A stretch of 10,059 nucleotides of DNA from a candidate division Zixibacteria bacterium RBG_16_43_9 (GTDB lineage: Bacteria > Zixibacteria > MSB-5A5 > RBG-16-43-9), in the NCBI GenBank assembly GCA_001775355.1, contig MEWM01000110.1:1610-11668 (forward strand). Reading direction: 5' to 3'. Positions within the stretch are counted from its first letter, which is position 1. Every line of letters starts with the position of its first letter. The translations under genes were made by a program, and so were the position numbers. Below, in pieces: positions 1 through 7,234 of this stretch. The notes under the pieces are model-generated. The model saw only the letters and a list, made by a program, of their open reading frames with translations, did not search any database and was not told where the DNA came from.

Positions 1-601
1 CGCCTAAAATTCCCATCAGATTTTTCATCCCCAGAGTTAGCCTAGATAAGCCGTGATGTTTGGCAATCGGTATATTGATCAAAACATCACATTCCATAGC
101 AGGCGTATAAACTGCCCAGGATTTTAAATAGATGCCCTGCGGGAACTTTGCCTCTTTAAAAGCCGCATCTATAACGTAGCTCACCTCAGCCCCAGCCTTA
201 GTAGCGGCTTTTTTAATCCCGCTACTTTCATAGCATCTCTGTGCAGTATTGCAGGACCGGTCAAATACTTTTACCTTTTTAGCCCCGGCTTCATAACACA
301 TCTTTATCACCTCTGAGACGACATCGGGATTGGTGTTAGCGGCCTGCTCCGGCCTTCTATCCCAGCCAATGTTGGGCTTTACCACCACAATATCACCCTT
401 AGACACAAAATTTTTCATCCCGCCTAAAAGCTCAACTGCTTTTCTGACCATATATTCTGGTGCACCGTCTTTAACCACAGCTAAATCAGGAGTAGTTACT
501 CTCTGGAGTTTTTCTCCAAAAGACTTAAGAGGAACGAAAGAGGAAAGGCTTAAAGCCGCACCTAAACCCAAGGAGCTTTTTATAAAATCTCTTCTTCTCA
601 T
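1..601 (-). CDS. Tat-exported DUF362 domain protein, 3' end cut by window edge
   Basis: The frame is open from an ATG at 601 to the window edge, about 200 codons without a stop; the C-terminus is missing. The N-terminus reads MRRRDFIKSS followed by a small hydrophobic stretch (LGLGAALSLSSF), a twin-arginine signal, so the protein is probably exported folded. The mature part resembles DUF362: a strand ending in VVVKPNIGW near residue 75, a segment with KVKVFDRSCNT around residue 110, and near the cut end INIPIAKHHG and LGMKNLMGILG, the usual 'ideal lysine/histidine then KNLMG' pattern of the family. The start has an AGGAAGG ribosome site 9 bases upstream (611-617) and overlaps the stop of the preceding gene as ATGA (598-601), which implies translational coupling. 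The biochemical role of DUF362 is not established and I assign no reaction. Confidence 0.85.
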   Translation of the reverse strand, partial: MRRRDFIKSSLGLGAALSLSSFVPLKSFGEKLQRVTTPDLAVVKDGAPEYMVRKAVELLGGMKNFVSKGDIVVVKPNIGWDRRPEQAANTNPDVVSEVIKMCYEAGAKKVKVFDRSCNTAQRCYESSGIKKAATKAGAEVSYVIDAAFKEAKFPQGIYLKSWAVYTPAMECDVLINIPIAKHHGLSRLTLGMKNLMGILG

Positions 602-1554
602 AAAAGAATTCCTTCCTGCCAGCCTAATTTTATCAACTCGATTTTATTTAGATCGCTCGTCCCAGCCTTATATCTGGTATCAGCTAAAGGTATATGAAGA
701 GGAGGAGGGTTTAAAATCCATTTCCCTTTTTTGTACTCATCCCTTTTGTTCTGGGTGATTTTGAGAGCTACTGTGTCGACTGCCACGTGGTCGTGCCCTA
801 AGATTAAAGCGTTGTAATTCCACAAATACTTGGGGTCAACCTGAGGTCCTCCGTTAAACAAGGGTCTTAGACCATCCAGAATAATAAGCCTGCATTTTGA
901 TTTTATCTCCGGATTGGCGCATAAAGCTCCAAAAGAGGAACAGCAGTCCTCGGTATGATATTCGACTGCATTGTCAACTGCACCAGCCCAGTTCTTGATG
1001 GAAAAGGCTGCCCCAGAAAGCCAGTGGCTTTTCATTCCTGGGACGTTGATTAAAGCAGTGCACCTCTTTATAACCTTACTCAGATGGTCTTTCTCATATC
1101 CAAAACTTCTTGGCCGGGAATGCATCTCCGCAGAGCCTATTCCCACTTTATCCCTGTCCCAGATATAGATATTCTTATCCTCAACCCCTGATTTTATAAG
1201 ATTCTGAACGATAAGCTCGATCAACTCATTGTGAGTCGGAATCATCATAACGTTTATTTTTACCCCTACAATATCTTTAGGATTAAAAAGCTTTTTCCAG
1301 ACCTTTGAGGGGTCGTTTTCACCGGCTAAATTTGCTATTCCAGAGTCCAGCATCTGAGATAGAAGATTTTTATCCAGATCCAGGTCATTATTCAAAACAT
1401 CTTTTTCTCGAATCAGGATAACTCTTTCTTTTTTCCCTCCCTGAGAAGAAAAAGCTTCAAAAGGAACCAGCCCCAGGGCTACTCCTAAGGTGGTGAATGC
1501 CGTCCCCTTCAAAAAATCGCGCCGGGTGAAGGACATTTCCTCTTTTTTATTCAA
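598..1554 (-). CDS. Tat-exported DUF362 domain protein (tandem paralogue)
   Basis: This 318-residue protein has a twin-arginine signal, TRRDFLK at residues 10-16 followed by a hydrophobic stretch to about residue 35. The body shows DUF362-like segments: DIVGVKINVMM near residue 95, a metal-ligand-like stretch around IYIWDRD near 130, INVPGMKSHWLSG near 170, SIKNWAGAVDN near 185, and a C-terminal ILGHDHVAVDTVALKI. It is a divergent neighbour of the next gene downstream, to which it is joined by ATGA. The chosen start is TTG at 1554, because GAGG (1563-1566) lies 8 bases upstream inside the end of the preceding gene. An ATG at 1536 (MSFTRRDF) is possible, but its GAGGA sits only one base away. 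No cysteine cluster or cofactor motif is visible. Function is unknown; localisation in the periplasm or outside the cytoplasmic membrane is inferred from the Tat motif. Confidence 0.88.
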   Translation of the reverse strand: MNKKEEMSFTRRDFLKGTAFTTLGVALGLVPFEAFSSQGGKKERVILIREKDVLNNDLDLDKNLLSQMLDSGIANLAGENDPSKVWKKLFNPKDIVGVKINVMMIPTHNELIELIVQNLIKSGVEDKNIYIWDRDKVGIGSAEMHSRPRSFGYEKDHLSKVIKRCTALINVPGMKSHWLSGAAFSIKNWAGAVDNAVEYHTEDCCSSFGALCANPEIKSKCRLIILDGLRPLFNGGPQVDPKYLWNYNALILGHDHVAVDTVALKITQNKRDEYKKGKWILNPPPLHIPLADTRYKAGTSDLNKIELIKLGWQEGILL

Positions 1555-1559
1555 TGCAG

Positions 1560-2582
1560 TTACCTCAACTTTTCCCTTACGTTCTTTAAAAAGGTTCCAG
1601 TTTTCTTCTCATCCTTGCTCTCAAAGGTAATCCATAAGTAATTTTTCTCCAGTTCCAGCCCGACGAATTTGTTCTCCTCCACTTTCTGGATGATTCTTTT
1701 ACTGGCAGGGGAGACCTTTAGATATTTAGTGCAAAAATTGTCAAAAGAAGACTTAGCTGAAGATGAGTCTGGATAAGAGATCAATAGGAGCTTCAGGTTC
1801 ATCTTCCCCAAAAGATAATCTCCCATCACCGCAGAGGTATTTTCGCTTAAATTAAGGAGGTTCTCCGTGGAAAGAAAATAAAGATTATTCAAAATAATTT
1901 GTTTACTGAAAAATCTCTCGGAATATGGAACCAGCCCTTCAGACGGGAGTTTAGACAAAAGTTTTGGAAGCTCCCCTTTTACATCTATTTTTCGGGAAAT
2001 ATCTTTGCCTAACTCTAAAATCTCTTCTTTAGACCGATCGTTCCCGCTCATATCGATTATCCTCACAAAAAACTTACCTCTCCAGAACTTTAAAAGACCT
2101 GAACCATAATTTGCTTTATCTCCGATTTGAAGAGCCTCCCCTTCCTGGTCCAGAGAATAAAGCCCAAAAGCATCCTGAGAGGTTTCCATCAAATAGACCT
2201 CGACAGTTATAGATTTCTCCCCAGCCTTATAATCCTGGACCAAAAGGCTTTGAAAATCATAAGCTAAATAAAGCTCTGCTCCTCCATCCAGATAATCATA
2301 CAGGTTTTTCCGATCAAATGATTTTGCCTTATCCGATTTTTCAAAATCCTTTACCTTCTGAGGCAATAAAGATTCAAGCTGGTTTCCCATAGCATCTCCC
2401 CCAAAAAATAGAATTAAAAAAAATACTGCCAAAAAATTAAGAAGAAAGCTATTAAAAGGTAACGAAATATGGCGGACAGGGGTGTCCGCCCTACGAGGGT
2501 TCATTGGTTGAATATTCGTAGGCGGGGCTCCCATCCCCGCTAATGTAATATTATCCAGAACCAAAAGAATTGAGCTTGACAT
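1560..2582 (-). CDS. DUF6599-like exported protein with repeat-derived 5' end
   Basis: From the internal Met at 2390 the protein runs 276 residues and begins MGNQLESLLPQKVKDF. It then has NLYDYLDGGAELYLAYDF and VEVYLMETSQDAFGLYSLD, which I recognise as the pattern of DUF6599, a family of unknown role usually exported. The start is uncertain. ATG 2390 has a good GGAG site (2396-2399) with 5-base spacing. However, the frame continues upstream through a signal-peptide-like hydrophobic run (SFLLNFLAVFFLILFFGGDA) that would be lost with that start. In-frame ATGs farther up are at 2504, 2534 and 2582, all lacking a clear ribosome site. The first two lie inside an inverted hairpin repeat (2471-2540). 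I give the longest ATG frame because the hydrophobic run looks real. The next gene, a Tat DUF362 protein, follows within 5 bases, suggesting co-expression. Confidence 0.75.
   Translation of the reverse strand: MSSSILLVLDNITLAGMGAPPTNIQPMNPRRADTPVRHISLPFNSFLLNFLAVFFLILFFGGDAMGNQLESLLPQKVKDFEKSDKAKSFDRKNLYDYLDGGAELYLAYDFQSLLVQDYKAGEKSITVEVYLMETSQDAFGLYSLDQEGEALQIGDKANYGSGLLKFWRGKFFVRIIDMSGNDRSKEEILELGKDISRKIDVKGELPKLLSKLPSEGLVPYSERFFSKQIILNNLYFLSTENLLNLSENTSAVMGDYLLGKMNLKLLLISYPDSSSAKSSFDNFCTKYLKVSPASKRIIQKVEENKFVGLELEKNYLWITFESKDEKKTGTFLKNVREKLR
2471..2540. repeat. REPIN-like pair of GTAG-headed hairpins, heads inward
   Basis: Three inverted repeats are nested without gaps. Arms GGCGGACA (2471-2478) and TGTCCGCC (2483-2490) form a perfect 8-bp stem with a GGGG loop. 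CTACGA (2491-2496) pairs with TCGTAG (2516-2521) across a 19-base spacer. GCGGGG (2522-2527) pairs with CCCCGC (2535-2540) around a 7-base loop. Read outward on each strand, each terminal hairpin is headed by TCGTAG, so this is two REP-like units in inverted orientation. A GTAG head before a hairpin is the known signature of REPs handled by RAYT transposases. The element overlaps the 5' part of the DUF6599 reading frame. Confidence 0.8.
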
Positions 2583-2606
2583 CTCTTTAAATTAATAGAA
2601 AACGAT

Positions 2607-3338
2607 TCATCCCTTTAACAGCCCAGGGAAAAGGCGCACTAAAATGGCTGAAAGATAACCCATGGCGTTAAAGAAGATCAAGACCCCGATGACCATAAGG
2701 AAGATTCCGCTTATGGTCTCAATGATTCTGAAATATTTCTTGACTTTAGAGAAAAATTCCAGGAAAAGATTAAATCCGATACCGGTTATCAAAAAGGGTA
2801 TCCCTAAACCTAAGGAATAAGCTAAAAGCAGACCCATTCCCTGGGTGATGGTCTCCTGGTTGGAGGCTAAGACCAGAATCCCAGCCAAAATCGGACCAAT
2901 GCAGGGGCTCCAGCCAAAGGCAAACGCCAGACCGATTAAAAAGGATTCGAACAAGCCCACCCCTTTTTTCCGGGCGTGAATTCTTTTCTCATAATCCAGC
3001 CAGGGGATCCTGAAGATGCCGACAAGATGGAACCCGAAGATGAAGATTATGAGGCCAGCGATCTTATTGAAAATGGATATTTTTGAGATAAGGAATTTCC
3101 CCAGAAAAGAGGCGGATGCCCCTAAAAGCACAAAAATTACAGAAAATCCGAGGATGAAGAAAAGCGAATTTAAGCTGGTTTTCTTCAGGGTTTCAAGCTT
3201 GTCTTCTTTTTTCTGAAGCTCCTCTAAAGTCAGCCCGGAGATGAAAGATAGGTACCCGGGTATTAATGGCAGCACACAGGGTGAGATGAAGGAGATTATT
3301 CCCCCGGTAAAAGCCGCTAAAAGTGAGACGTTATTCAG
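2607..3338 (-). CDS. ccdA: CcdA-type thiol/disulfide transporter (DsbD membrane domain)
   Basis: This is a six-helix membrane protein of 243 residues that in this family carries electrons from cytoplasmic thioredoxin across the membrane to periplasmic thiol-disulfide partners. The start I prefer is CTG at 3338, giving (M)NNVSLLAAFTGGIISFISPCVLPLIPGYLSF, the standard CcdA first helix. A perfect AAGGAGG (3343-3349) lies 4 bases upstream. The next in-frame start, a GTG at 3275, would fall just after Cys21 and remove it. The two transport cysteines are then Cys21 (SPCVLP) and Cys146 (GWSPCIGP), both in the expected SPC context. Stops in frame upstream of the CTG rule out a longer ATG form. No TlpA/ResA-like thioredoxin or cytochrome c assembly gene is visible nearby. 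It is followed after about 24 bases or more by the DUF6599 gene. Confidence 0.92.
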   Translation of the reverse strand: MNNVSLLAAFTGGIISFISPCVLPLIPGYLSFISGLTLEELQKKEDKLETLKKTSLNSLFFILGFSVIFVLLGASASFLGKFLISKISIFNKIAGLIIFIFGFHLVGIFRIPWLDYEKRIHARKKGVGLFESFLIGLAFAFGWSPCIGPILAGILVLASNQETITQGMGLLLAYSLGLGIPFLITGIGFNLFLEFFSKVKKYFRIIETISGIFLMVIGVLIFFNAMGYLSAILVRLFPGLLKG

Positions 3339-3342
3339 GCAT

Positions 3343-3349
3343 CCTCCTT
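3343..3349 (-). promoter_or_regulatory. Strong ribosome binding site selecting a CTG start of ccdA
   Basis: The minus strand reads AAGGAGG, a full Shine-Dalgarno core, then four bases, then CTG at 3338. An ATG inside the spacer (3340-3342) opens only a three-codon frame ending in TAA, so it cannot start the transporter. The homology of the residues encoded after the CTG to CcdA N-termini decides the start. Confidence 0.7.
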
Positions 3350-3433
3350 GAATTTAAGTTCAATTATTAAAAATACGGATTGAAGCAAGGAAAATTTAAG
3401 GTTGGTAGGGAAATGCTGTATTTTCGTTGGTTT

Positions 3434-3509
3434 TCGTAGTGCGACCCTTTAGGGTCGCATTGTGCTTGCGGGGGGCTGGGAACCCCACCTACGAGGATAG
3501 AGTCTATCC
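3434..3509. repeat. GTAG-headed hairpin pair, heads outward, plus adjacent small hairpin
   Basis: TCGTAG (3434-3439) is followed by a perfect 9-bp stem, TGCGACCCT (3440-3448) and AGGGTCGCA (3451-3459), with a 2-base loop. On the other strand TCGTAG (3489-3494 as CTACGA) is followed by a G-rich hairpin, GGGG pairing with CCCC (3483-3486 with the G run at 3470-3475). The two heads are at the outer ends, opposite to the arrangement at 2471-2540. A further hairpin, GGATAG/CTATCC with a 3-base loop (3495-3509), abuts the right-hand head. It sits in the 199-base gap between the receiver-domain gene and ccdA. No T-run follows the hairpins, so this is not a canonical terminator, though it may still affect mRNA ends. 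Confidence 0.75.
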
Positions 3510-3537
3510 GCTCAAAACGAACAGGAAAGTGTAGAAA

Positions 3538-4368
3538 TCAGACCAGCTCTTCGATCTTCTCTTTTATCAGCTGCTTTATTTCCTGAGCATCGATTTTCTC
3601 GGCGATCTTCTCCGCAACTCTGGCTGAAACCTCATTAACTATCTTCCGGGTCAGGTTCTCAAAATCCAAATCTTTGACTCTTACTGTCTCAACGGATCTG
3701 ACTTCTGGTTTTTGCTCCCCCGGTGTCTCCAATTTCATCTCCTGGTAGACCATCGGTTCGTCTTCTTCCATCCCTTCCATTTCTTTTTTGAACTCGGAGA
3801 CGAATTTTTCGTAACTATCCTCTTGCTTGACTTTCGGCTGAGTTATCTTCTCTTCTTCGTCAGAGGTGAATTGTTCCACGCGGGGTTCGAACACGGATTT
3901 GTCCTGCACAGAGTCCGGTATCCTGTCTACGCCTCCGGGATAAGCCTCCGGCTCTTTTATGAGATTCATCTCTTCGATTTTGACCTGTGAGGTTTTTTCG
4001 GTTTTCTTTAGAGACTCCTCCACCTTCTCTAAAAACTCTCTGGGCGAAAAGGGCTTGAGGATAAAAGAGTCACAGCCTGACGTTTTAAACCCTTCCTGGT
4101 TGACCGATTCTCTGGAATTGAGCAGCATAACCACCGGGATATTTTTCAAAGCATAGTCGTTTTTAAGGTCCTGACACAGGCTAAACCCGTCTTTGAGCGG
4201 CATGGAATTATCCAGAAGCACTAAGTCTGGTGAAATTTTCTTAATCAGGGTAAAAGCCTCTTCTCCATTCTGAGCTAGAAAAACCTCATACCCTTTCTGG
4301 CGGAGCAGAAATTCAGCCACGCTGCGGATAGTCTGGCTATCATCCGCTACTAAGATTTTATTGGGCAT
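3538..4368 (-). CDS. Response regulator receiver protein with acidic linker and helical tail
   Basis: Residues 1-122 form a CheY-like receiver domain: acidic pair Asp9-Asp10, phospho-acceptor Asp53 in PDLVLLDNSMP, and Lys105 in FILKPF. The position of the conserved switch Thr/Ser (Thr87 of CheY) is Leu83 in IPVVMLLNS, which is unusual. From about 125 to 230 there is a low-complexity, acidic, probably disordered linker. Residues 233-276 form a charged amphipathic region with repeated VAEKIAEKID-type turns ending KEKIEELV. This resembles the helical tails of some response regulators in Deltaproteobacteria. There is no DNA-binding output domain, so it probably acts through protein contacts. The start has GGGAGGG (4374-4380) 5 bases upstream. 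It lies 20 bases after the rhomboid gene and is probably co-transcribed. No histidine kinase is present in the window. Confidence 0.88.
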   Translation of the reverse strand: MPNKILVADDSQTIRSVAEFLLRQKGYEVFLAQNGEEAFTLIKKISPDLVLLDNSMPLKDGFSLCQDLKNDYALKNIPVVMLLNSRESVNQEGFKTSGCDSFILKPFSPREFLEKVEESLKKTEKTSQVKIEEMNLIKEPEAYPGGVDRIPDSVQDKSVFEPRVEQFTSDEEEKITQPKVKQEDSYEKFVSEFKKEMEGMEEDEPMVYQEMKLETPGEQKPEVRSVETVRVKDLDFENLTRKIVNEVSARVAEKIAEKIDAQEIKQLIKEKIEELV

Positions 4369-4388
4369 GGCAACCCTCCCTATTTAGA

Positions 4389-5195
4389 TTACTTCTTCTC
4401 ATCTGACAATCTATGGCTGGCTTCCTCTAAAAGCTTTTTCTCCTCTTTGGTCAGATTCTGGTAACCGACCTGGTTGATCTTGTCCAGGATCTGGTCAACC
4501 TTTGACATCAGCCTCTCGGTCTTCTTCCTTTTTTTCTCGGAGGCTTTGACTTTAAAGTTATGCCCTATATCTCCTAAGTATCGGAAAAAGCTCTTGATTC
4601 TCCAGTCAGCCTTAAGATATAAATATCCGACGACCATCCCTCCCAGATGTGCGAAATGGCCAATCCCATCTCCGGTATAGCGAAAAGAGGCTAAAAGCTC
4701 AATCCCTCCGAAAAGCAAAGCTAAATATTTGGCTTTGATCGGGAAAAGAAAGTAAAGGTAAATTATCCTCTCCGGAAACATCAGGGCAAAAGCGACTAAA
4801 AGCCCGAAAATAGCGCCAGAAGCTCCGATGGTGACAACTGAGGAGTTAAAGGATAAAAGAAAACTTGCTATTCCTGCTCCGACACCGGTTATGAAATAGT
4901 ATTTGATGAACTCCTTTGTGCCCCAGGCTCTCTCGATATCTCCTCCGAAGATGTAAAGTGCGAACATATTGAAAAGAATATGAAAAAGACCACCATGTAA
5001 AAACATATAAGTGAAAAGCTGCCAGACATACCCTTCCTTAACCAGGATAGGTGTAAGCCCGAATATATAAAGGAGCTTGCCCCTTAAGAAAAGCTGGGCC
5101 AAATAAACTATTCCGTTTACCAGCAGAAGCGATTTTACCCCTCTGGTCAGGCCTCCGCCCCAGCCCAGATTATAAGAGCGATAATTGTAACTCAT
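4389..5195 (-). CDS. Rhomboid family intramembrane serine protease with C-terminal DUF6576-like tail
   Basis: This 268-residue protein has the six-helix rhomboid core between about residues 20 and 193. Active-site features are the His72-Asn76 pair in HILFNMFALYIFG, the nucleophile Ser126 in GASGAIFG, and the partner His183 in FAHLGGMVVG. The family cleaves membrane-anchored proteins within or near their transmembrane segments. After the core there is a basic, charged linker (about 215-228), then VDQILDKINQVGYQNLTKEE and KKLLEEAS at 233-260. I recognise this as the DUF6576 motif often found at the cytoplasmic end of such rhomboids. The start gives the usual MSYNYRSYN opening, but no Shine-Dalgarno sequence is visible; AT-rich TATATATAG lies directly upstream, so a short or absent leader is possible. 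The receiver-domain gene follows after 20 bases. The substrate is unknown. Confidence 0.93.
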   Translation of the reverse strand: MSYNYRSYNLGWGGGLTRGVKSLLLVNGIVYLAQLFLRGKLLYIFGLTPILVKEGYVWQLFTYMFLHGGLFHILFNMFALYIFGGDIERAWGTKEFIKYYFITGVGAGIASFLLSFNSSVVTIGASGAIFGLLVAFALMFPERIIYLYFLFPIKAKYLALLFGGIELLASFRYTGDGIGHFAHLGGMVVGYLYLKADWRIKSFFRYLGDIGHNFKVKASEKKRKKTERLMSKVDQILDKINQVGYQNLTKEEKKLLEEASHRLSDEKK

Positions 5196-5243
5196 AGCTA
5201 TATATAAGTATCGGAAGTTTTAAAAAATACCTAATCGATTTAT

Positions 5244-5272
5244 GTAGGGACAGAACAGTGTTCTGTCCTTAC
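5244..5272. repeat. Single GTAG-headed hairpin repeat
   Basis: GTAG (5244-5247) is followed by a perfect 10-bp stem, GGACAGAACA (5248-5257) and TGTTCTGTCC (5259-5268), around a single-base loop. Including the head, the arms extend to 14 bp with one C-to-T difference that still allows G-U pairing. It lies in the 118-base gap between the nuclease gene and the rhomboid gene. The GTAG head is shared with the elements at 2471-2540 and 3434-3509, but the stem sequence is different. No T-run follows on the minus strand, so a standard terminator is not supported. Confidence 0.7.
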
Positions 5273-5313
5273 TAAGTAAAATACGTGTTTCAAAAGAGAA
5301 ATTTTATAACCGT

Positions 5314-6099
5314 TTAAAGAAGTTCCAACTGTTCTATAGCCTCATTTTCTAAAAATTTTCTGATGCTTTTCTGGTTTCTCGTTCCGCCCAGATTATTTAC
5401 TGTCTTTTTAATTACTCCTAAGCAGAGTTGGAGTTTCTGGTTTATCTCCTTACTTCCGAATCTCAAGACTGACCAGCCTGAACCAGTAAGGTAGTTATTT
5501 CTCTGATTATCTTTGAAGATCAGGTTCTTTTGAGAATGCCAGAAATCACCATTACATTCCACATCTATTTTCCCTTTCTGGCAGAAAATAGCGAAATCCA
5601 GATAATATCTTACTTTTCTTTCTCCGATAAGATATTGTCTCTCTGCTTCTATCTTCTTTTTCTTCAGCTCATACCAGAGTTTTTCCTCCAGGGGGCTTTC
5701 CATAAATAGATCATTGATCTCCTCAGCTTTTTTCAGACGGCTCAAACTGGTAGAGATAAAGGTGATCCTGCGCCATCTTCTGCTGATAACCGGCTGGGGT
5801 AAAGGCTTTAACTCTCCCAGCTTGATCTTATAATAATCCTCTAAAGCTCGGGGATGATCTTTTTCCTGAGGAAGAAGCTCCATTCTTTTTAGTTTTTCAA
5901 ATCCTTTAATCTCCGCATAGTAATTTATCGCCCATTTCTCCTTCTCAAAAACTTTGGTCTGATAAAATGCTATGAAATCAGCTTTCCATCTCTTGGGGGC
6001 AGTTTTGACCGGGATCCTATACCAGTGTTCTTCTCTGGCAATTTTAAAGTCCTTTAGGTTATTAATGACTGCGACTAAGACTTTTATATCTTCTGGCAT
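5314..6099 (-). CDS. DUF559/Vsr-like nuclease with unassigned N-terminal domain
   Basis: The C-terminal half (about 133-225) of this 261-residue protein looks like a PD-(D/E)XK nuclease of the DUF559/Vsr type. It has SPLEEKLWYEL with Glu138/Glu139, then Asp168 in YYLDFAIF, Glu181 in DVECNGDFWH, Asp197 and Arg200 in KDNQRNNYL, and GWSVLRF at 208-214. All expected catalytic acidic positions are present. Residues 1-130 contain HWYRIPVKTAP, ADFIAFYQTKVF, AINYYAEIKGF and SRRWRRITFI. I cannot assign this domain to a named family. Its strand-rich look and aromatic residues loosely suggest a PUA/EVE-like binding fold, which is inference. I recall similar two-domain proteins in other phyla such as Chloroflexi, so the architecture appears conserved. 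The start is ATG, 39 bases after the DUF362 gene, with no clear ribosome site. A role in DNA repair or defence is possible but unproven. Confidence 0.82.
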   Translation of the reverse strand: MPEDIKVLVAVINNLKDFKIAREEHWYRIPVKTAPKRWKADFIAFYQTKVFEKEKWAINYYAEIKGFEKLKRMELLPQEKDHPRALEDYYKIKLGELKPLPQPVISRRWRRITFISTSLSRLKKAEEINDLFMESPLEEKLWYELKKKKIEAERQYLIGERKVRYYLDFAIFCQKGKIDVECNGDFWHSQKNLIFKDNQRNNYLTGSGWSVLRFGSKEINQKLQLCLGVIKKTVNNLGGTRNQKSIRKFLENEAIEQLELL

Positions 6100-6138: not shown

Positions 6139-7215
6139 TTAATACCTTTCAAACAGCTTGCCCCATTCGGTCTTCCTGAACCGGTTTATCCTTGCCCTGC
6201 CGATCAAGGGATACCAGAAATAGTCATGATAGAGATTAGAAGCCATTGGAGCCCAGAAAACTAAAGGCGATTTTAAAGCAACTTTTTCTAAAAATCTCAG
6301 AGGTCCCAGTCTCAACATCTGGTCCCCCCAGATCACGAAGCTTTTCCTGGTCTTGAATCCGAAATTAACTGAGGATATATCCTCGCCTATTATCTCTATA
6401 TCTTTAGGATTGCTCACTCCCAGCCCTTTTTCCTGGCAGAGCCGGATATAAGGAATCTGCAGAGGGTCAAAGCCCATCATCTTAGCTGCAATGGCATCCA
6501 ACGCCACAGAATCATTTGAAGCTAAGATGTAATTTTTTATCACCGGTTGCATAGTTCTGGGACCTGCTCCATCACCGCATACAGTTCCATCCATAACTGC
6601 TAAAATTCCAGGGTGAAGCTCTTTTTGCATAATCATCAGGTCAACTAAAACTTCGTGAATATATTTATGGGCATAATGTCTGACCTCTTTTAAAAGCCCG
6701 CCAAAAGCATTTTTCACAGCGCCTGTAGTTACCGAATGGCCATGTGTTTTCAAAGTCGGAAGGTGAATGATCTGTTTACCTATATAAATTTTGGGGATTT
6801 CTATCCCCTCAGGAAAGATCTGATTGAGCCTTAAGAGCTTTTCCTTGAATTCATATTTGACCCATTCAGCTTCAGGCAGGGGGTTGAACTTCAGCCCGTA
6901 CTTTTCCAGGATTGAAGTCCAGCGGTTATTTTCCGCCCCTTTAACCGGATCAGTCACCACGGTCTTATTTTCCACCGGGAAGAGCCTTTTCCTCTCGAAT
7001 CCATCCTCAATCAGAGTTTTCACCACACTTTCCAACTGCCAGGGCTGGGTGGAACAGGCAGGGAAATATTTGGTCCAGGATAAATTGAGCTTGATTAAAG
7101 TATCTTTTTCCCTGGAGATATACTTGCTATAATCTAAAAGATGAAGAAGCTTTTGATAATCTTCTAATACCGAATCTGTGCTGGTCTTTAATACCACCAC
7201 TTTAGAGCCGGGCAT
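6139..7215 (-). CDS. Cytosolic DUF362 domain protein in the polysaccharide operon
   Basis: This 358-residue DUF362 protein has no signal peptide or Tat motif, unlike the two at the left end of the window. Recognisable family segments include TLIKLNLSWTKYFPACST near residue 42, IIHLPTLKTHGHSVTTGAVKNAFGGLL near 155-180, ILAVMDGTVCGDGAGPRTM near 205-225, and NDSVALDAIAAKMMGFDP near 235-255. The last motif is typical of the C-terminal half of the domain. The start is ATG 7215, preceded by GGAGAG (7223-7228) at 7-base spacing. A GTG at 7230 would extend it by five residues but has no ribosome site. It follows the UbiA-family gene by about 20 bases, suggesting a shared transcript and perhaps a role linked to lipid or glycan modification. 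That link is by context only; the reaction is unknown. Confidence 0.88.
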   Translation of the reverse strand: MPGSKVVVLKTSTDSVLEDYQKLLHLLDYSKYISREKDTLIKLNLSWTKYFPACSTQPWQLESVVKTLIEDGFERKRLFPVENKTVVTDPVKGAENNRWTSILEKYGLKFNPLPEAEWVKYEFKEKLLRLNQIFPEGIEIPKIYIGKQIIHLPTLKTHGHSVTTGAVKNAFGGLLKEVRHYAHKYIHEVLVDLMIMQKELHPGILAVMDGTVCGDGAGPRTMQPVIKNYILASNDSVALDAIAAKMMGFDPLQIPYIRLCQEKGLGVSNPKDIEIIGEDISSVNFGFKTRKSFVIWGDQMLRLGPLRFLEKVALKSPLVFWAPMASNLYHDYFWYPLIGRARINRFRKTEWGKLFERY

Positions 7216-7234
7216 AATTAATCTCTCCACGCTT

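Follow-up and report, generated by a model that had tools for sequence, protein, structure and literature searches.

Five strong hairpins, each preceded by GTAG, lie at three sites in a contig of the draft genome of candidate division Zixibacteria bacterium RBG_16_43_9 (GCA_001775355.1; 1,951,274 bases, 160 contigs, 74% complete), and their stems differ; the question is why the head is shared and the stems are not. The window, i.e., the whole stretch of DNA that was analysed (10,059 nucleotides), corresponds to contig C110, positions 1610–11668. The five hairpins are very probably repetitive extragenic palindromes (REPs) of four families among about twenty GTAG-headed ones, most likely spread by cognate REP-associated tyrosine transposases (RAYTs; TnpA_REP, HuH/Y1 single-strand transposases); dispersed families of copies, an intergenic bias, RAYTs with matching hairpins and differences in presence between close relatives were observed. 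The elements of the window are:

Site 1: 2471..2494, minus strand; GTAG + GGCGGACA-cccc-TGTCCGCC; family xxCGGGCA-ccct.
Site 2: 2518..2540, plus strand; GTAG + GCGGGGCTCCCATCCCCGC, a decayed copy of GCGGGGCT-ccc-AGCCCCGC; family of the C5 RAYT.
Site 3: 3436..3459, plus strand; GTAG + TGCGACCC-TTTA-GGGTCGCA; family GCGACC(T)-ttta, that of the C22 RAYT.
Site 4: 3468..3492, minus strand; GTAG + GTGGGGTTCCCAGCCCCCCGC, imperfect; by eye a decayed GCGGGGCT-ccc copy.
Site 5: 5244..5268, plus strand; GTAG + GGACAGAAC-AGT-GTTCTGTCC; family GGACAGAAC-att, that of the in-frame hairpin of the C84 RAYT.

All five hairpins of the earlier note are present in the sequence, GTAG stands directly at the foot of each, and the three sites are intergenic; TC in front of GTAG is characteristic of some families only (27/35 GCGACC, 16/17 xxCGGGCA, 14/24 GCGGGGCT). 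Four of the five were detected by the strict scan, 2494(−), 2518(+), 3436(+) and 5244(+); the site 4 hairpin (head 3492–3489, minus strand), whose stem is imperfect, was missed. The stems, described in that note as unrelated, are by their sequences those of four families, sites 2 and 4 being decayed copies of one (site 4 by eye); site 2 deviates from GCGGGGCT-ccc by one base, and the perfect form is found at the same place in the sister genome G002. Each stem of the window has copies elsewhere once the decay of sites 2 and 4 is taken into account, and the lack of such copies, one of the two outcomes that the earlier note would have taken as refutation, did not occur; the family of site 1 is represented by 19 strict copies genome-wide.

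Hairpins were surveyed in 75 contigs (958,813 b), seven of which had been picked for holding a RAYT or the window; contigs 1–68, selected by number (853,071 b, with some truncated at 20 kb), formed a content-blind subset. Stem score of at least 8 was required in the per-head enrichment tests and a stem of at least 7 in the survey, and the chance baseline was given by five Markov-1 simulations. The survey yielded 398 GTAG hairpins vs 5, 6, 8, 7 and 6 in the simulations, and 22 clusters of at least five copies vs 0; seven other heads gave 5–59 hairpins and one such cluster altogether. The content-blind contigs held 342 GTAG hairpins; in the per-head test of these contigs, a hairpin stood directly after 218/3,810 GTAG vs 3,268/1,699,478 positions overall (30-fold). 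Counts no higher than chance, the other outcome that the earlier note would have taken as refutation, were thus not seen. In the first 60 stretches, partly chosen for TTCGTAGG or a RAYT, the figure was 219/3,336 GTAG (32-fold, top of all tetramers). The octamer TTCGTAGG alone is not enriched genome-wide (73 sites vs 91 for the backward pattern); the GTAG excess emerges only once a hairpin is required. Within the window the excess is modest (hairpin headed by 4/31 GTAG vs 272/20,112 all heads; CGAT 5/60). G002 has a matching density (207 in 508,980 b, 407 per Mb vs 415 in the source genome). Open reading frames (ORFs) of at least 120 amino acids (aa) make up 84.5% of the sequence, yet hold the midpoints of only 51/398 elements, which are thus mostly extragenic.

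Single-linkage clustering (two pair or loop changes allowed) gave 84 clusters, 22 of them with at least five near-identical copies and together comprising 310/398 elements. Hand merging gave 20 named groups with 328 elements, 70 being left unassigned; the merging is a matter of judgement, and 22 clusters is the mechanical number. One-footed groups include GCGGGGCT-ccc, GCGACC-ttta, CGTCxxxx-tttat, GGAxxxC-ttca, xxCAGACA-ttcc, xxCGGGCA-ccct, GGxxxxxx-cttgt and others; symmetrical GTAG...CTAC groups are GGGCAxxx-catg, GGGCGTAT-tgca, GGGCxGGTT-tna, AGACGCAT-tgc and GGGTTCAA-aatt. In several groups the loop is nearly constant and the inner stem pairs vary with pairing kept; the finder takes paired stems only and biases these data, so that kept pairing with varying stems is no independent proof of covariation. 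Other groups show a variable loop on a fixed stem. The mix is unusually rich for a small bacterial genome, and the many-copy clusters, together with the RAYTs with matching hairpins described below, bear out the coexistence of several REP families that the earlier note had offered as one option; its assumption of a stem normally common to the REPs of a genome was too strong, since several species hold several GTAG families (PMC3733652).

RAYT genes were found with two models: PF01797 gave 10 matches in the genome, and NF047646 13 matches at 12 loci, six of them above the cut-off. The C5 and C22 RAYTs score 137.5 and 116.7 bits with NF047646 (cut-off 80) and carry the HuH motifs NHIH/DHLH and the Y---NP motifs YIHKNP/YILNNP; the C5 RAYT matches the solved TnpA_REP 4er8 by sequence (E 2.9e-13). 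The genes with hairpins at both flanks or in frame are:

C5 RAYT, both flanks: GCGGGGCT-ccc, the family of sites 2 and 4, and GCGGAGCA-cct.
C22 RAYT, both flanks: GCGACCT-ttta, the family of site 3.
C85:21099 RAYT, both flanks: CGTCGGGC-tttac.
C67 RAYT, both flanks: AACAGACA/AACAGGCA-ttcc.
C36 RAYT (C36:13682–14609), both flanks: AACAGACA hairpins with the head GTGG, not GTAG.
C124:6486–6890, C84:15835–16278 and C99:3242–3655: RAYT-like genes, GTAG hairpin in frame after the HuH motif.

The same family stands on both sides of 4/12 RAYTs (match coordinates, 300-bp flanks) vs 40/34,402 background windows; wider flanks gave a background of 73/33,802 or 110/33,202 windows (range 0.1–0.3%). Among the window families, those of sites 2, 3 and 4 have a RAYT with their own REP at both flanks, and that of site 5 has a copy inside the C84 gene; sites 2–5 can be paired with a RAYT and site 1 cannot. 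At C85:3909 a GTAG hairpin was found on one side only, and a stop lies within two RAYT loci, C85:3909 and C134. The AACAGACA stem, GTGG-headed around the C36 RAYT, is GTAG-headed elsewhere in the genome.

Several results weigh against the spread of these REPs by cognate RAYTs. Eight of the 12 RAYT loci are without same-family GTAG hairpins on both sides, and no convincing GTAG hairpin was seen at C126, C6 and C134; when stop-to-stop ORF borders are used, 3/12 RAYTs score, as do 4/371 control ORFs (36/16,907 windows). For the family of site 1, no cognate RAYT turned up in the 74% complete assembly, the closest RAYT match to its 17 sampled copies being 908 bp off. G002 has three GGGCRGGTT copies, yet its one detected gene of the C124/C84/C99 clade bears another hairpin. 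Finally, no precise empty site was demonstrated in the relatives compared, so that movement of the REPs is something that we infer.

These relatives were the sister genome G002 and G001 (both of the same genus) and G003 (same family), with identities of the DsbD_TM protein to that of the window genome of 98%, 97% and 82%, respectively. At site A (2471–2540) both hairpins are present in G002, and no GTAG hairpin is present in G001 or G003. At site B (3436–3492) the site 3 hairpin is present in G002; the site 4 hairpin was not seen there, the alignment breaking at window 3469, and G001 and G003 are without a GTAG hairpin. At site C (5244–5268) the element is lacking in G001, where two other REP families stand ca. 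100 bp on, no GTAG hairpin was seen in G003, and the G002 contig ends before site 5. Around site B (window 3350–3540) the same two genes were found ca. 1.6–1.7 kb further apart in G002 and G001 than in the window; the extra DNA holds an ORF of 118 aa (G002) or 429 aa (G001), and the window–G002 alignment breaks at the REP pair.

For orthologous sites, 268 element groups were taken; 261 offered usable flanks, and 37 could be located in the G002 sample. The element was kept at no less than 0.93 identity at 12/37 sites, and no two-sided (compensatory) stem change was found in these 12 by inspection of the pairs; of the remaining 25, one was clearly different and 24 were of other length, some with a similar out-of-register hairpin. 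The GGGCRGGTT family was absent from the 508,980-b G002 sample, which had at first spoken for a rule of one family to one RAYT; a pattern search of the whole genome of G002 gave three copies, and the rule was dropped because of them.

The hairpins within genes of the C124/C84/C99 clade were followed in several overlapping sets of such genes from many phyla. A GTAG hairpin between the HuH and WQ motifs was found in 24/30 phylum loci and in 55/80 named loci, the latter being the best 80 of 567 ranked with a query that contained a palindrome; an earlier sample gave an in-gene hairpin in 65/85 genes, 25/110 loci having given no ORF when one strand only was read. Since the first sample had been ranked by a palindrome-containing alignment, the collection was repeated with a palindrome-free N-terminal query, and an in-gene GTAG hairpin was found in 26/30 loci; a further set of loci gave 18/20. 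Other RAYTs, taken as control, had an internal GTAG hairpin in 0/17 cases (3/20 gave no match); among these 17 one stood upstream in 9 and downstream in 9. Of the distinct genes whose frame is open to the WQ motif, 86/116 have an in-gene hairpin. Where both are present, in-gene and flanking hairpins agree (no more than one pair different) in 40/49 genes vs 248/2,352 cross-gene comparisons; for named genes only, in 22/25 vs 93/600. Frame and orientation differ among 86 in-gene hairpins when their left edges are compared (46, 18, 12, 9 and 1); this speaks against a single ancestral insertion and favours repeated insertion or replacement in what would be a tolerant loop. The stems GGGCGTAT, GGGCACGG-catg and GGGCAATT-catg of the genome also occur inside RAYT genes of distant phyla (loci L200, L201, L227, L235, L254, L261), and this points to transfer or to a restriction on which stems are allowed.

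It is possible, if rather doubtful, that the hairpin of such subclass-2.4-like RAYTs is an exchangeable label, in which the enzyme needs GTAG, outer G/C pairs and pairing, whereas the inner stem and loop are exchanged in the course of time, the in-gene copy jointly with the flanking ones. Each transposase gene would then carry a matching set of its own substrate. Where a lineage has several genes of this sort, new REP families would arise quickly, and the presence of about twenty of them in so small a genome would be accounted for. A RAYT gene with in-gene and flanking hairpins replaced together would be a written record of its substrate, and would allow RAYTs and REPs to be paired in any genome.

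The closest rival is a single class of elements in which only the GTAG head and base-pairing are constrained and free stems alter in place by compensatory mutation, the other option of the earlier note; we consider it improbable. Loop-sharing groups with different stems (ttta/ttca, cttgt) and inner pairs that vary with pairing kept speak for it, and in the C124/C84/C99-type clade the in-gene stems are more than one pair apart in 155/208 gene pairs with N-domain identity of at least 0.6. The near-identity of the copies in the 22 large clusters (310/398 elements), the fixed stem with variable loop of some families, and the lack of two-sided stem change in the 12 near-identical G002 elements of 37 comparable sites argue against it, and for recent copies the proposal that only head and pairing are constrained is not supported; on a longer time scale it may hold in part, given the loop-sharing groups with different stems and the varying inner pairs. 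Ordinary transcription terminators or structured RNA elements, with GTAG incidental, are a still less probable account: the hairpin sites do lie between same-strand genes, and site 1 (minus strand) is one of four terminator-like matches in 2380–5330, but shuffles gave 4.2 such matches, the other four hairpins are not included, no Rfam match was found in the window, and head-specific enrichment and copy families would be left unexplained. Chance hairpins beside a common tetramer, with which the small window-only excess (4/31) and the unenriched TTCGTAGG would agree, are ruled out by simulation (398 vs 5–8 hairpins; 22 vs 0 clusters), by the other heads and by the content-blind contigs.

Spread by cognate RAYTs would proceed, by analogy with E. 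coli and other TnpA_REP systems, as follows. The RAYT would bind the hairpin folded in single-stranded DNA, recognise the GTAG foot together with family-specific features of stem and loop, and cut beside the hairpin; copies would land in intergenic DNA. They decay where they sit, as site 2 has. On this proposal every RAYT lineage would have a hairpin of its own, hence the different stems of the families, and GTAG would be common to them because it guides cleavage. Foot, stem and loop are reported to weigh differently for different TnpA_REP enzymes (PMC8266576), and on this basis we infer recognition of this kind, as well as cleavage, transposition and the assignment of copies to individual RAYTs. 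With one GTAG head common to several RAYTs and some twenty hairpin families in the same cell, the features that separate the families must lie in stem and loop; recognition by RAYTs of their own REPs and the birth of REP families become testable questions.

The ten window genes scanned against Pfam are all on the minus strand. Site A is flanked by a DUF6599 and a DsbD_TM gene, site B by that DsbD_TM gene and one for a response regulator, and site C by a rhomboid and a DUF559 gene. The longest ORF at window 1560–2582 (−) begins upstream of site A and traverses both hairpins; the DUF6599 domain starts only at residue 81 of this ORF, and the true start of the gene is therefore probably downstream of the site A REPs. 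Two DUF362 genes less than 7 kb apart (window 598–1554 and 6139–7230, minus strand) were also noted, near UbiA, polysaccharide deacetylase and ParA-like genes.

REPINs are inverted REP pairs. Same-family neighbours no more than 100 bp apart in this genome are REPIN-like, with GTAG outside in 21/28; in the window, no element is paired with a neighbour of its own family.

GTAG REPs have been sorted into 24 families from more than 80 species, some species having several GTAG families and repeat-specific REPtrons (Di Nocera et al. 2013, PMC3733652). The elements described here resemble that superfamily in the GTAG foot, stems of 6–9 bp, short loops and mostly intergenic position, and also in complementary stem changes between sub-families, several families per genome and family-specific REPtrons. 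The difference is one of number: a single draft genome of 1.95 Mb holds about twenty groups, vs 24 families (GTAG-1 to GTAG-24) over more than 80 species, the comparison being by number. In the E. coli TnpA_REP with Y-REPs (4er8; PMC8266576) the GTAG foot is likewise touched by an HuH/Y1 enzyme, which the C5 RAYT matches by sequence; the stem of E. coli REPs is bulged, whereas the well-formed REPs of the window are perfect palindromes.

In-frame REPs between the HuH and Y motifs are described as unique to TnpA_Y1 subclass 2.4 and predominant in it (RAYT group 4; Quentin et al. 2018, PMC6006769); the in-gene hairpins, which had first looked new, are thus a published feature. C124, C84 and C99 are like this subclass in their in-frame GTAG hairpin between the two motifs, and its motifs NH[IFV]H, WQ and YIxNNP largely fit: C84 has NHIH, WQ and YIINNP (65.4 bits, under the NF047646 cut-off), C99 has NHFH and WQ, its Y region being masked, and C124 deviates (NYVH, YILYNP). 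The symmetrical GTAG...CTAC REPs of the genome resemble the 'double foot' REPs described in the same paper. No recognisable paper on the REPs of this genome or on about twenty REP families per genome was found in a literature search that left subscription journals mostly outside, which makes it weak evidence of novelty. The system is of a known kind and a rich case of it; its notable parts are how many families one small genome contains and how in-gene and flanking hairpins agree gene by gene, as counted here.

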